Of a DNA stretch of 43,346 nt, positions 30,729-35,191 are shown in pieces. The first letter of the stretch is position 1, and each line of letters opens with the position of its first letter. The DNA is from Phascolarctobacterium sp. (GTDB taxonomy: Bacteria > Bacillota > Negativicutes > Acidaminococcales > Acidaminococcaceae): NCBI GenBank assembly GCA_017623055.1, contig JAGAPX010000029.1, forward strand, positions 1-43,346. Direction: 5' to 3'. A program made the position numbers and the translations under genes. Below the pieces are notes generated by a model. That model was not told where the DNA came from. It made no database searches and was given only the letters and a program-made list of their open reading frames with translations.

Positions 30729-30813
30729 TGGTGCGAGTGACAGGAATCGAACCTGCACGCCTCACGGCGCTAGATCCTAAGTCTAGTGCGTCTGCCAGTT
30801 CCGCCACACTCGC
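30729..30813 (-). tRNA. tRNA-Leu (anticodon UAG)
   Basis: 85 nt including CCA, with a long variable arm as in class II tRNAs. Acceptor GCGAGTG/CACTCGC, anticodon stem CTAGA/TCTAG with loop CTTAGGA, anticodon UAG. T-arm CAGGTTCGATTCCTG. Confidence 0.95.
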
Positions 30814-30825
30814 ATTCCATTGGTT

Positions 30826-30834
30826 ATTATAACA
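30826..30834 (-). promoter_or_regulatory. extended -10 promoter of tRNA-Leu
   Basis: TGTTATAAT on the minus strand (TATAAT at 30826-30831), between the terminator of the His-Gln-Lys transcript and tRNA-Leu, so tRNA-Leu is a separate unit. Confidence 0.55.
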
Positions 30835-30842
30835 TATATAAA

Positions 30843-30875
30843 CAAAAAAATAAACCGCCTACTTTCGTAGACGGT
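30843..30875 (-). terminator. terminator of the tRNA-His-Gln-Lys transcript
   Basis: 9-bp stem ACCGTCTAC/GTAGGCGGT (minus strand) with a GAAA tetraloop at 30854-30875, then TTATTTTTTTG. Confidence 0.92.
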
Positions 30876-30886
30876 CTTTGTCGAGT

Positions 30887-30962
30887 TGGTGATCCACCCG
30901 CGACTCGAACGCGGGACACCCTGATTAAAAGTCAGGTGCTCTACCGACTGAGCTAGTGGATC
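30887..30962 (-). tRNA. tRNA-Lys (anticodon UUU)
   Basis: 76 nt with CCA. Acceptor GATCCAC/GTGGATC, anticodon stem CCTGA/TCAGG with loop CTTTTAA, T-arm CGCGTTCGAGTCGCG. Confidence 0.95.
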
Positions 30963-30965
30963 ACT

Positions 30966-31041
30966 TGGCTGGGGCGGCTGGACTCGAACCAACGCATGCG
31001 GGAGTCAAAGTCCCGTGCCTTACCGACTTGGCTACGCCCCA
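30966..31041 (-). tRNA. tRNA-Gln (anticodon UUG)
   Basis: 76 nt ending GCCA. Acceptor TGGGGCG/CGCCCCA, anticodon stem CGGGA/TCCCG with loop CTTTGAC, T-arm with GGTTCGAGTCC. Confidence 0.95.
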
Positions 31042-31063
31042 ATCATTGTCGCGTGCTAACAGG

Positions 31064-31140
31064 TGGGGTGGCTAGAGGGATTCGAACCCTCGAGTAACGG
31101 AGCCACAATCCGCCGTGTTGACCGCTTCACCATAGCCACC
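31064..31140 (-). tRNA. tRNA-His (anticodon GUG)
   Basis: 77 nt with the encoded extra G at -1 typical of tRNA-His and a CCA end. Anticodon loop TTGTGGC gives GUG; T-arm GAGGGTTCGAATCCCTC. First tRNA of the His-Gln-Lys transcript. Confidence 0.95.
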
Positions 31141-31232: not shown

Positions 31233-31607
31233 TTATTTTACAGCAACAACTTCAATCTCAACGTGCACGCCTTTGGGCAATGCAGCCACTTGCACGAAGG
31301 AACGAGCAGGCGGATTTACTTGGAAATATTTACCATACACACCATTAACTGCTGCAAAATCGTTGATGTCAGTTGCGAAGATAGTAGTTTTTACAACATT
31401 TGCATAAGTGCAGCCTGCTGCTTCCAAAACTGCGCCAATGTTATGCATTACTTGTTCAGCTTCTGCTTCGATGTTTTCTAAAACTAATTCGCCGGTTGCC
31501 GGATTAATTGCAATCTGACCAGAGCAATACACAGTGTTGCCTGCTACGATTGCTTGGGAATAAGGTCCCAAAGCTTGAGGTGCTTTATCAGTAGAAATTA
31601 CTTGCAT
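31233..31607 (-). CDS. ridA: RidA family enamine/imine deaminase
   Basis: 124 residues, the standard RidA trimer subunit. Conserved residues: GPYSQAI (14-20), Arg102 in PPARSFVQV (binds the substrate carboxylate) and Glu118 in VEIEVVAV. RidA hydrolyses 2-aminoacrylate and related imines to keto acids plus ammonia. 2-Aminoacrylate is the reactive intermediate released by serine dehydratase, whose genes lie just upstream (21 bp), so the operon carries its own detoxifier. ATG after AAAGGAG. Last gene of the serine operon. Confidence 0.95.
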   Translation of the reverse strand: MQVISTDKAPQALGPYSQAIVAGNTVYCSGQIAINPATGELVLENIEAEAEQVMHNIGAVLEAAGCTYANVVKTTIFATDINDFAAVNGVYGKYFQVNPPARSFVQVAALPKGVHVEIEVVAVK

Positions 31608-31628: not shown

Positions 31629-32513
31629 TTATTTTGCAAAATATGTTTTAGCCCAAGCTAATGCCGTTGGCGTAGTTGCCATACCCCCGCCCGCAGTTTC
31701 CTTCAAAGCACAAGGTAGACTGTCGCCAACGCTCTTCATTGCGTCAATGGCCTCGTCCGCAGGAATAAAGCTTTCAATTCCTGCCAGTGCAAGCTCTGCC
31801 GCCGCAAGTGCCTGCAAAGCACACGAACCATTACGTTTGATGCAGGGTACTTCAACTAACCCAGCCACAGGGTCGCATACAAGACCCAAAACATTTTTAA
31901 ACACAATGGATACAGCGTGTCCAATTTGAGCAGGATTTCCTCCAAGCATTGCCACCGCTGCACCTGCAGCCATCGCCGCCGCACTGCCACATTCCGCCTG
32001 GCAACCACCTGTTGCTCCTGCCAAAGAAGCTCTATCTGCAATTACAAGGCCGATGCCTCCGGCAACAACAAGACCTTCTGCTAAAACTTGATCGCTTAAA
32101 TTATAATGTTTTTTCAACGCAAAGAACACTCCCGGCAGCACGCCGCTTGCCCCTGCTGTAGGTGCAGCTACGATTCTGCCCATTGCCGCATTGGCTTCCG
32201 CGACCGCCATGGCATAGACCATTGCATCCTTTGCCTTATCACCTAAAATATTGTTGAACTGTTTTTGCTCGGAAGCTTCCAAAAGACGTTTTGCAGCTCC
32301 ACCAGTCAAACCACTATGGGAGCGTACGCCTGTAAGTCCAAAATCAATGGATTCCTTAATAACCACAAGCATTGATTCCATTTTAGCAAGCAGTTCTTCT
32401 TTAGAGCATTCCAGCTCCTTGGCATTATATTCAATTAAAAATTCCTGCATGGATTTTCCGGAAGCTTCTGCCTCGGAAATCCAGCTGTTTAAAGAAAGTT
32501 TATCTTTTTTCAT
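31629..32513 (-). CDS. sdaAA: L-serine dehydratase, iron-sulfur-dependent, alpha subunit
   Basis: 294 residues, the usual alpha-chain length. It converts L-serine to pyruvate and ammonia with a 4Fe-4S cluster. Signatures: APTAGASGVLPG (117-128) and four cysteines in the right places (Cys171 and Cys175 in GGCQAECGSA, Cys213 in GLVCDP, Cys224 in VEVPCI), of which three hold the cluster. The enzyme is oxygen-labile and typical of anaerobes. Starts 9 bp after the beta gene. Confidence 0.95.
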   Translation of the reverse strand: MKKDKLSLNSWISEAEASGKSMQEFLIEYNAKELECSKEELLAKMESMLVVIKESIDFGLTGVRSHSGLTGGAAKRLLEASEQKQFNNILGDKAKDAMVYAMAVAEANAAMGRIVAAPTAGASGVLPGVFFALKKHYNLSDQVLAEGLVVAGGIGLVIADRASLAGATGGCQAECGSAAAMAAGAAVAMLGGNPAQIGHAVSIVFKNVLGLVCDPVAGLVEVPCIKRNGSCALQALAAAELALAGIESFIPADEAIDAMKSVGDSLPCALKETAGGGMATTPTALAWAKTYFAK

Positions 32514-32522
32514 AGCTTAACC

Positions 32523-33188
32523 TCACGCAACACTGGCGATAAATCGCACAGAGTGAATTTGCTGCAAGGCAGCAATCAGATTGATGATTCCTTGCGGAAC
32601 ATCTTCGTCACACTCGATGACCATAGAAGCCAAGCCACCTTTATTGCTACGGAACACGCGCATAGTCGCCACGTTCACTCCCGCACTGGCAAGAGTGCTG
32701 GTAACCAGGGCGATAATACCCTTTCTATCTTCATGGACTGTCAAGATGGCAGGTAATTTACCTGTCAGCTCCACAGGGAAACCATCAATGCTATTTACAA
32801 GCACCTGCCCGCCTCCCACAGAAGCGCCAATAATCTCACACTTGCTACCGTCTGCCGCCGTAAGCTTGAACATAGCAGTGTTGGGATGGGTCAAGCTTCC
32901 CAAATCAACCTTGTCAAAGCTATAATCTAAGCCTGCTTCCTTGGCAAACTTATCTGCTTCAGGAATGCGCGCATCATCAGGCAACCAACCCATCAAGCCA
33001 GCCAAAAGCGCCATATCCGTACCATGTCCCTTGTGAGTTTCAGCAAAGGAACCGTGCAGATAAATTTCTGCCTTTACGGGAGAACTACCTAAAATTCCGG
33101 CAGCTAACAAACCAAGACGAACAGCACCAGCAGTATGGGAACTGGAAGGTCCAATCATCACAGGACCAATAATATCAATAATATTCAT
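32523..33188 (-). CDS. sdaAB: L-serine dehydratase, iron-sulfur-dependent, beta subunit
   Basis: 221 residues. The N-terminal domain begins IGPVMIGPSSSHTAGAVRLG (about 8-27), the hallmark of serine dehydratase beta chains, where it contacts the cluster and active site. The C-terminal 75 residues form an ACT domain (LTVHEDRKGIIALVTSTLAS), a known site for serine sensing or oligomer control. Partner of the alpha subunit encoded next. TTGGAG precedes the ATG; 21 bp after the HutP-like gene. Confidence 0.95.
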   Translation of the reverse strand: MNIIDIIGPVMIGPSSSHTAGAVRLGLLAAGILGSSPVKAEIYLHGSFAETHKGHGTDMALLAGLMGWLPDDARIPEADKFAKEAGLDYSFDKVDLGSLTHPNTAMFKLTAADGSKCEIIGASVGGGQVLVNSIDGFPVELTGKLPAILTVHEDRKGIIALVTSTLASAGVNVATMRVFRSNKGGLASMVIECDEDVPQGIINLIAALQQIHSVRFIASVA

Positions 33189-33209: not shown

Positions 33210-33644
33210 CTATACCTCAGTAGGAACAGAACGATGAGCAACGCCCACACATAGTTCGTTAAGATTAAGTACGCCTACGCCCATAAAGATTGCCACACAA
33301 AGATGTTCTCCATAGCGAGCTATCCCAATCTTGCCACCAACACTAAAGCCGATTGCCTTATTCTTTACTTGCTCTAAGGCAGCATGAGTAGCACCTGCTA
33401 CAGCACCAGCTCCCACATGGCTTTCATTTACCAAGCCTTGTTTTTGAGCAACAACAACGGCACGCTCCATAATTTTACGGATGGAAGGAACAAACTCTCC
33501 GCCAAAATCAACAGCAGCACTACGAATATTTTGTTTGAGCAAAGATTCTTTGATGAATTGTTCTTCTGTACGAGAAGAGCTTAATGCCAAGCGTAATGCG
33601 GCACGGCCTACATCAATACTTTTTAACGAACCAGTTTCTAACAT
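33210..33644 (-). CDS. HutP-family RNA-binding regulator
   Basis: 144 residues, close to the length of B. subtilis HutP, the hexameric antiterminator that binds UAG/NAG triplets in hut mRNA when loaded with L-histidine and Mg2+. The C-terminal half carries the family pattern: GAVAGATHAAL (80-90), SVGGKIGIARYGEHLCVAIFM (101-121), then GVGVLNLNELCVGVAHRSV (122-140), ending in His137, equivalent to the metal-binding His near the C-terminus of HutP. In my recalled alignment two other B. subtilis His ligands (H73, H77) fall on glycines here, so the effector may differ. Placed 5 bp after the symporter and before sdaAB, in an operon whose leader has UAG clusters. Confidence 0.82.
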   Translation of the reverse strand: MLETGSLKSIDVGRAALRLALSSSRTEEQFIKESLLKQNIRSAAVDFGGEFVPSIRKIMERAVVVAQKQGLVNESHVGAGAVAGATHAALEQVKNKAIGFSVGGKIGIARYGEHLCVAIFMGVGVLNLNELCVGVAHRSVPTEV

Positions 33645-33649
33645 TTATA

Positions 33650-35083
33650 TCAGTCCTCTTCTATCATTTCCACTTCCTTAATCTTCTCTTTGTCAAACAA
33701 GGGAATGAGCAAGAAAGTAAGAATGCAAATTACCCATTCAAAGTAAACAACTTCTTTGAAGATGGGTTTAATACAAGCTAAAGGATTGCCCGGCATGTAC
33801 CACAGCACGATGCCTGCGATACCAACCAAGGTGGTCCAAAACGCACTACTGCGGCGACAAGCGCCAGGAGCAAACACAGTAAAGAAAAAGATACAGGTCA
33901 AAGCAGTAGTCATGGACAGACCAGCAATCATAGTTTTCAAAATACCTGCGGCGTTGAAAGCAAACCACAGAGTAACGATACCAATTACAAAAACAGTAAG
34001 ACGATTTATGGTAACAAATTTTTCATCACTAACACTAGGATTAATGAAACGTTTATAAATATCTTGGGAGAACAAGGTGCTTGCGCCCAAAAGAATAGTA
34101 CAAGCCGTAGAAACGTCTGCTGCCCACAGCGCCGCCAAAGTTGCACCGGAAGCGATGGGGTTAAGGCTCATAACAACTTTAGGCATGGCAATGGCAGCTT
34201 TTTCCACAGGAATTTCCGGGAACATAACTTTCGCTACCAAACCAAGCACTGCGCACAAAAAGCCTACGGGGAAAATCAAAAGACCACCCAAAAGGAAACC
34301 ATTACGTGCAGATTTTACACTGCTTGCACCACAGGCAATTTGCACAGGACCTTGAGCAGTAATTGCTTGGGTAATCATAACCACAAACCAGCTGATGATT
34401 ACTACCAGAGGAATGCCTGCCAGAGGATCAACCATAACTTCTGCATTGGGAAGCTTGGAAACTAAAGCATCCCAACCACCAACATTATCAACCGCGCTAA
34501 CGCAGGAATACAAAACGCCAAAATAAATCAAGGTAACGCTGATGATATTGGACAAACCGCTGGACCACAAACCGCCAATCAAAGTAATGCCAATGAACAC
34601 CACTGCACTCATCAGCATACCGCCTTGGAAGCTGAAAACTTCCGGAAGCAGGGAAGAAAGAATCGCACCGCCTGCCAAATATTGCAAAGCAGTAATTACA
34701 CACATAATAATTACTAAACCAACCGCACTGATTACGCGACCCTTGGTGTCGTAATATTTTTCAAAGAATTCCGGAATGGTGGAAACTTTCATGGCACGCA
34801 ATCTTCCTGCGGCAAAAAGGCCCATCACTACAGCACCAGCTGCCCAAGCCGCGTTATACCAGCCAGCAGCCATACCAATAGAAAAAGCTCTTTCAGCTAC
34901 GCCAACAGTTGAAGCAGCGCCAACTGCCAAACCAGTAATGTTAACTGCGATCAAAGCACTACCAAGCTTGCGTCCTGCCAAAAGGTACGCAGTAGATCCT
35001 TTAGAAGCTCTGTTCTTCACCCAAAAGCTTATGCCGAAGAGCATTGCGATGTACAGACACACGATAATTAATTGAATAGACAT
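33650..35083 (-). CDS. sodium:solute symporter (SSS family), probable serine/amino-acid importer
   Basis: 477 residues with about 13 membrane segments of the SSS (LeuT-fold) family; typical N-terminal features are YLLAGRKLGSALIAVNITGL (about 33-52) and the GVAERAF segment, with WSSGLSNIISVT in mid-protein. It drives uptake by Na+. The operon context (serine dehydratase, RidA) makes L-serine the best guess for the substrate; the family also covers proline, pantothenate and sugars, so this is inference. Its AAAGG ribosome site (35094-35098) lies exactly in the 5-nt gap between two UAG triplets of the leader, 10 nt before the ATG. Confidence 0.88.
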   Translation of the reverse strand: MSIQLIIVCLYIAMLFGISFWVKNRASKGSTAYLLAGRKLGSALIAVNITGLAVGAASTVGVAERAFSIGMAAGWYNAAWAAGAVVMGLFAAGRLRAMKVSTIPEFFEKYYDTKGRVISAVGLVIIMCVITALQYLAGGAILSSLLPEVFSFQGGMLMSAVVFIGITLIGGLWSSGLSNIISVTLIYFGVLYSCVSAVDNVGGWDALVSKLPNAEVMVDPLAGIPLVVIISWFVVMITQAITAQGPVQIACGASSVKSARNGFLLGGLLIFPVGFLCAVLGLVAKVMFPEIPVEKAAIAMPKVVMSLNPIASGATLAALWAADVSTACTILLGASTLFSQDIYKRFINPSVSDEKFVTINRLTVFVIGIVTLWFAFNAAGILKTMIAGLSMTTALTCIFFFTVFAPGACRRSSAFWTTLVGIAGIVLWYMPGNPLACIKPIFKEVVYFEWVICILTFLLIPLFDKEKIKEVEMIEED

Positions 35084-35176
35084 ACCTACACTACCTTTCT
35101 ACCATACTACAATTCGTAGGTTCAAAAAATTTAGGTTCCTTCCTACAAAGCTACAATCCTACAACGCAAGGAAACC
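35084..35176 (-). promoter_or_regulatory. 5' leader with two UAG-triplet clusters (candidate HutP-type RNA switch)
   Basis: On the minus strand the leader of the symporter mRNA contains TAG triplets at 35159-35161, 35151-35153, 35143-35145 (cluster 1) and 35107-35109, 35099-35101, 35091-35093 (cluster 2), each cluster with an exact 8-nt period (TAG-N5-TAG-N5-TAG), plus a further TAG at 35086-35088. Cluster 2 brackets the ribosome site AAAGG. The 5' end GGTTTCCTT (35168-35176) can pair with AAGGAACC (35134-35141), placing cluster 1 in a loop of 26 nt. There is no T-rich terminator, which points to translational rather than termination control. Regulatory function is inference; the spacing pattern is directly visible. 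Confidence 0.72.
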
Positions 35177-35182
35177 ACTAAC

Positions 35183-35191
35183 ATTATAGCA
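35183..35191 (-). promoter_or_regulatory. extended -10 promoter of the serine operon
   Basis: TGCTATAAT on the minus strand (TATAAT at 35183-35188); the -35 region is weak. A start near 35176 gives a leader of about 93 nt beginning just before the hairpin that holds the first UAG cluster. Confidence 0.6.

Follow-up and report, generated by a model that had tools for sequence, protein, structure and literature searches.

The symporter-hutP operon and its leader

The window analysed here is a stretch of 43,346 nucleotides of Phascolarctobacterium sp. (Acidaminococcaceae, Negativicutes) DNA (contig JAGAPX010000029.1), which carries on its minus strand an operon encoding an SSF-family symporter, a HutP-subfamily protein, both subunits of L-serine dehydratase and a Rid-family deaminase, preceded by a leader with two ladders of evenly spaced UAG triplets (Table 1). 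The nearest solved structures to the symporter are sugar and choline symporters, at low similarity. The hutP gene starts 5 nt past the symporter stop codon and is the only PF09021 gene found in the genome (n=1), and the profile matches of the operon genes include no hut genes. A cluster of four tRNA genes (30732-31139) lies directly 3' of ridA on the same strand.

Table 1. Position of the operon genes and leader features in the Phascolarctobacterium window
Feature	Position	Strand	Evidence or remark
-10 element TATAAT	35183..35188	minus	TG one base upstream (extended -10); from sequence
5' leader RNA	35084..35176	minus	putative extent about 93 nt, from sequence; fold at chance level
Ladder site 1 (cluster 1), GTAGGATTGTAGCTTTGTAG	35143..35162	minus	three UAGs (35161-35159, 35153-35151, 35145-35143), 8-nt period; kept in relatives
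Ladder site 2 (cluster 2), GTAGTATGGTAGAAAGGTAG	35091..35110	minus	three UAGs (35109-35107, 35101-35099, 35093-35091), 8-nt period; includes ribosome-binding site
Ribosome-binding AAAGG	35094..35098	minus	flanked by second and third UAG of site 2
Seventh UAG	35086..35088	minus	begins 5 nt past last UAG of site 2
SSF-family Na+/solute symporter gene	33650..35083	minus	PF00474, E 7.7e-29
HutP-subfamily gene, proposed ladder binder	33210..33644	minus	PF09021, E 3.5e-42; HutP fold
sdaAB, L-serine dehydratase beta subunit	32523..33188	minus	TIGR00719
sdaAA, L-serine dehydratase alpha subunit	31629..32513	minus	TIGR00718
ridA, Rid-family enamine/imine deaminase	31233..31607	minus	TIGR00004

On the minus strand, the leader 5' of the symporter gene (ATG at 35083-35081) reads TTGTAGGATTGTAGCTTTGTAG ... 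TTGTAGTATGGTAGAAAGGTAGTGTAGGTATG, and its two clusters, each with a period of exactly 8 nt, are separated by 33 nt. A near-consensus extended -10 promoter, TGCTATAAT, is found upstream of the ladders; from it we infer a transcription start near 35176, and because this element lies just upstream of them, the ladders would fall inside the transcript. A simple promoter and terminator scan of the window returned no more sites than were found in shuffled sequences, and the TATAAT element was absent from its list because the accompanying -35 is weak. Folding of the leader was no better than that of shuffles (z-score 0.28), a terminator search within it found none, and scanning the window against Rfam with gathering cut-offs returned tRNAs only, the leader matching no family. 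An ACCUAC/GUAGGU pairing spotted by eye in the leader was rejected, as it is missing in the sister species.

The pattern TAGN5TAGN5TAG occurs twice in the window, against 0.17 expected, and none of 100 shuffles reached two. Among 20,000 dinucleotide-shuffled versions of the 95-nt leader, none contained two TAG-N5-TAG-N5-TAG clusters, and likewise none contained two clusters sharing any period from 5 to 12. Pattern searches across the entire 1.72-Mb genome found GTAGN4GTAGN4GTAG only in the symporter leader (n=2), and the reversed pattern not at all.

Conservation of the ladder in Negativicutes

Of 380 Negativicutes genomes, 134 were found to have HutP-family genes, and 120 regions from these were examined. 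In most families an SSF gene lies immediately 5' of hutP, and the ladder was found upstream of such SSF-hutP pairs in 32 genera belonging to 17 families. Leaders representing the 32 genera held 58 TAG pairs at a distance of 8 nt, compared to 4.2 in shuffles (sd 2.0, maximum 10), and with one leader per family (n=17) there were 31 such pairs, compared to 2.1. Distances of 6, 7, 9 and 10 in the genus leaders showed no comparable enrichment; weaker peaks at 3, 5, 13 and 16 arise from twice the period and from extra TAGs near the grid. All 58 pairs at distance 8 were on the sense strand and none on the antisense strand, which argues for a signal in RNA.

The conserved unit of the ladder is GUAGNAUG, repeated every 8 nt, with G at -1 in 94% and A at +4 in 79%. 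When two of three grid positions were TAG, the third was some other NAG, mainly CAG or AAG, in 23 of 107 cases (4.6% expected, p 6e-10), while UAA and UGA showed no 8-nt period in the leaders (3 and 2 pairs, respectively). NAG is also the triplet rule described for HutP (PMC7430163). Throughout the class, nearly every leader in the 17 families examined carries site 2 as GTAGAAAGGTAG or a variant close to it, in which AAAGG lies about 10 nt ahead of the start codon with a UAG/NAG triplet on either side; outside the window family many of these site 2 ladders have two UAGs, not three. Site 1 is found upstream of site 2, and the spacing between the clusters varies among relatives. A hairpin resembling an intrinsic terminator (CACTCC..GGAGTG-U6 and similar) separates the two sites in eight families, designated f7 (Pelosinus), f12, f16, f21, f24, f25 (one Sporomusa-type leader), f26 and f30; the window family is one of several in which no such intersite terminator was found. 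As the hairpin occurs only in some families, the ladder at the ribosome site is the constant element, and terminator control an optional one.

An earlier sequence-only reading of the window had described the two clusters and the seventh TAG, and their positions proved exact on the minus strand; it had also considered the shared period unlikely by chance, as the leader shuffles bear out, and had pointed to a ribosome site between UAGs of cluster 2, a nesting that recurs in almost all families. Alignment of orthologous leaders, which it had suggested, revealed periodic UAGs conserved in the class, and orthologous leaders lacking the periodic triplets were not encountered. Its further proposal, that HutP-type binding would gate the ribosome site, is supported by this nesting, by a HutP-fold protein being encoded in the same operon, and by the NAG rule being kept at the variable triplet.

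Class-wide matches to the GTAG ladder in a large family (f20), such as GTAGGGAAGTAGGGAA, were discounted, as they resemble simple tandem repeats. The f20 genomes are mostly without a window-type hutP.

A HutP subfamily with a changed ligand pocket

To our knowledge, nearly all work on HutP concerns the histidine antiterminator of Bacillus. By profile and by predicted fold, the window protein is a member of the HutP family. It matched PF09021 with 144.1 bits (cut-off 25), and its AlphaFold model (pLDDT 92.5) aligned to 4ok9 with a Z score of 17.2 and an rmsd of 2.3 over 130 residues, and to 1vea with a Z score of 17.0; Geobacillus and Bacillus HutPs overall gave Z scores of ~15-17, and the best non-HutP fold 7.4. 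Searching the PDB by phmmer with the single sequence gave no match, and a profile alignment was used instead.

The histidines H73, H77 and H138 of HutP structures hold a metal ion and L-histidine. In the profile alignment, with B. subtilis residue numbering checked against 1vea, they correspond to G80, G84 and L128 of the window protein. G80 and G84, together with H76, H114, H137 and R138, do not vary among 39 sequences drawn from Negativicutes and from outside the class, and the position of H138 is mostly Leu across the window-type subfamily. All three histidines are kept in six paralogs of the other subfamily from the same bacteria. As the histidine ligands are replaced here and retained in these paralogs, we consider the window-type proteins to be a separate HutP subfamily with a different pocket. 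Judged by these residues, the window protein is outside the group of histidine-activated antiterminators, and the sequence evidence says that PF09021 contains, besides the classical proteins, at least one further large subfamily whose ligand pocket has changed.

Ladders at aromatic amino acid genes

Allowing steps of 8 or 9 nt (GTAGN{4,5}), the window genome contains five ladders in total: two in the SSF-hutP leader, two before the second gene of a tandem aroF (DAHP synthase) pair, and one before two tandem SNF/SLC6-type symporter genes. The best solved relative of these symporters is 4us3, a bacterial sodium-dependent transporter that we take to be MhsT, a hydrophobic amino acid transporter. 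Ladders in related genomes precede tyrA, aroF, aroH, glcD and further SSF genes, as well as genes for an ABC_sub_bind-family solute-binding protein and a tyrosine phenol-lyase-like protein, and the ribosome site is again nested in the ladder at tyrA of genome G014, aroF of G061 and glcD of G023. Among 37 genomes of the family, a ladder at aroF or tyrA was present in 16 of the 29 with hutP and in 1 of the 8 without it, a modest association (Fisher p 0.048, uncorrected for kinship among the relatives), and the aroF and tyrA leaders of five genomes of a sister genus (g17) without this hutP showed none.

Outside the class, members of the same hutP subfamily are followed by aroH, aroF and tyrA in Desulfosporosinus, Desulfotruncus, Desulfoscipio and Syntrophomonadaceae. 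Several Desulfosporosinus-type leaders have a ladder and then a terminator 5' of hutP, and the outgroup leaders contain 14 GNAG pairs at distance 8, compared to 2.2 in shuffles (maximum 7 in 200 shuffles). No ladder was found in the aroF leaders of hutP-containing genomes outside the order, and the aromatic link outside the order is therefore one of synteny and a few targets only. The recurring partners of the ladders and of hutP are aromatic and, above all, tyrosine-related.

Examination of some of these gene neighborhoods revealed further features. The tandem aroF paralogs of the window genome (L232:2008-5235; G000:C14:74507-76876) are followed by a gene whose start resembles the aroF N-terminal domain and whose remainder matches tyrA, possibly representing a regulatory domain fused to prephenate dehydrogenase. 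In the window genus (L232 and L233), the leader of the second aroF has a hairpin, for example TTAAGCTTTCGCTTAAG, between its two ladders, which is not a terminator because it has no U-run. At another locus (L146:4028-13668), three diverged hutP copies are interleaved with two pairs of tyrosine decarboxylase and amino acid permease genes, with long N-masked stretches after each hutP copy. Relatives in Dialister and Veillonellaceae have thrS with a T-box leader, immediately followed by a window-type hutP (L143-L154, L156, L349, L358); these thrS-hutP pairs were rejected as ladder targets, their leaders being T-boxes, and no ladder was seen at the loci.

Proposed mechanism and alternative explanations

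Our overall reading, to which we give a probability of roughly 0.6, is that the HutP-subfamily protein binds the ladders, blocks translation and senses an aromatic amino acid. This relative of HutP probably sits on the start region of the mRNA and thereby shuts off translation. The ladders would be single-stranded RNA sites for the product of the operon's second gene, and a multimeric, HutP-like hexameric protein would take one UAG per subunit. Bound to site 2, it would hide the ribosome site and stop translation of the symporter; since the hutP start is 5 nt past the symporter stop codon, we propose that hutP translation would be stopped as well, resulting in autoregulation. The same protein would act in trans on aroF/tyrA and on the SLC6-type symporters. 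The signal would be one of the aromatic amino acids, tyrosine being the likeliest, and plentiful tyrosine would therefore lower both uptake and synthesis, as in the logic of TRAP but carried out by a HutP fold. Where a terminator separates the sites, binding at site 1 may also alter read-through, and the window lineage, which has no such terminator, would rely on translation. We infer the ligand, the sign of control and ladder binding itself from sequence comparisons. The serine-dehydratase genes of the window operon are not explained by an aromatic signal, and the substrate of the window symporter may be serine or an aromatic amino acid. For the tyrosine phenol-lyase-like target and the tyrosine decarboxylase neighbours, induction would fit better than repression. 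We would give even odds to a broader proposal, in which a widespread and so far undescribed class of HutP-fold regulator without the histidine-Mg2+ site senses an aromatic amino acid and governs how it is taken up, made and broken down in Negativicutes and Clostridia-type Bacillota through 8-nt GUAG ladders, with a translation block as its core and a terminator as an option, as an independent counterpart of TRAP.

It is conceivable that the same protein and sites serve activation, with binding preventing the formation of a terminator or else of an inhibitory fold, in the manner of HutP at the hut operon. Such a role is in keeping with the terminators that follow site 1 in eight families of Negativicutes and that follow the ladder 5' of hutP-aroH operons, and also with the catabolic targets. 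However, the window leader has no terminator and folds at chance level, none lies between the sites in the window family, site 1 is upstream of the terminator stem and not within it, and almost every leader has its ribosome site inside site 2; we regard activation as unlikely. The sequence-only reading had called the mode of control unlike classical antitermination; this holds for the window leader, but not for the eight families, where the terminator between the clusters points to a transcriptional layer. That reading had also proposed a serine switch, in which the protein on the ladders would sense serine and control its uptake and breakdown, and sdaAB, sdaAA and ridA are indeed found 3' of hutP, both in the window and in most members of its family and order. 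The sda genes nevertheless accompany SSF-hutP in some lineages only (one order plus scattered others), and SSF-hutP pairs with ladders occur without them in most other families; in addition, ladders in trans are found at aroF, tyrA, aroH and SNF symporter genes, and the Clostridia-type operons consist of hutP-aroH-aroF-tyrA. A serine switch is thus not supported, and a serine signal seems to us less probable still than activation.

Two further explanations do without the binding of a protein to the leader RNA. Regular spacing of repeats is typical of DNA operators, and the ladders are near promoters, as would suit the binding sites of a transcription factor; with a single orientation relative to the gene (58 pairs versus 0), a site 2 that tracks the ribosome site across 17 families, and a HutP-fold gene adjacent to the ladders, operators are a very improbable explanation. 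The UAGs might also be stop codons that insulate the symporter from upstream translation since, 8 not being a multiple of 3, three consecutive UAGs stop every frame. This suggestion is hardly credible in view of the lack of an 8-nt period for UAA and UGA, the filling of gaps mostly by CAG and AAG, which are not stops, and the additional conservation of G at -1 and A at +4.

Comparison with HutP, TRAP and T-box systems

The spacers between classical HutP triplets are usually given as 4 nt, which would make a period of 7 nt, compared to the period of 8 nt in the window ladders. The window protein has its family and fold in common with HutP of Bacillus subtilis (PF09021; PDB 1wmq, 1vea; PMC7430163), which recognizes two clusters of three UAG/NAG triplets on unstructured RNA, as the window protein is predicted to do. 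The two differ in that H73, H77 and H138 are replaced by Gly, Gly and (mostly) Leu in the window subfamily, and in that the clusters are ~20 nt apart in hut RNA. In addition, the target of the window protein is not hut, its site 2 covers the ribosome site, and its leader has no terminator.

TRAP (MtrB) of B. subtilis is another amino acid-responsive ring protein that reads repeated (G/U)AG triplets, and it controls aromatic amino acid synthesis both through attenuation and through a block of translation initiation. It also controls transport. Its fold, however, is unrelated to that of the HutP-type window protein. TRAP needs 11 triplets at spacers of 2-3 nt (PMC7430163). A TRAP gene (MtrB/TrpBP, PF02081) was found in 0 of 59 genomes of the window family, with B. 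subtilis as a positive control. T-boxes, which are present in the same class, also represent leader-based control of amino acid and tRNA-synthetase genes, but they are structured tRNA sensors, whereas the window leader has neither an Rfam match nor a stable fold.

RNA regulation by HutP-type reading of triplets is known, and what would be new is an aromatic subfamily with TRAP-like logic. Searches of open-access papers, whose silence is weak evidence, returned none that connects HutP to chorismate mutase or to tyrosine together with a regulon, no mention of a HutP family or HutP-like proteins, and nothing useful on HutP with UAG or in aromatic metabolism. If our reading is true, the ladders represent an unrecognised amino acid switch, with TRAP-like action on a different protein. 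The code of GUAGNAUG every 8 nt is precise and searchable, predicting an aromatic amino acid regulon in gut and environmental anaerobes and providing a ready regulon annotation for bacteria without TRAP. The subfamily also offers a direct test of how ring proteins read spacing, and of how one fold is re-used for different amino acids.

Other HutP-family loci

Paralogs that keep H73, H77 and H138 (L089-L100, e.g. L090:4132-10269) occur in malonate-decarboxylase operons of Acidaminococcaceae, in the order OAD_beta, biotin ligase, hutP, mdcA, sometimes with two hutP paralogs per locus. A terminator-like hairpin (AGAGAG..CTCTCT-U5) lies between hutP and mdcA, and no 8-nt ladder was evident at these paralogs, for which we predict HutP-type control beyond histidine use. 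In a Phascolarctobacterium-like genome, a ladder of the form TAG-N4-TAG-N4-TAG, with a period of 7 nt as usually given for classical HutP, is found upstream of a hutP without SSF (L085:5780-5980, also L318). Finally, a gene of lactate-racemase length is located 3' of hutP in both subfamilies and in two families (L123:6410-7699 and L127:3046-4335); the former matches LarA, and the latter was judged by its length alone.
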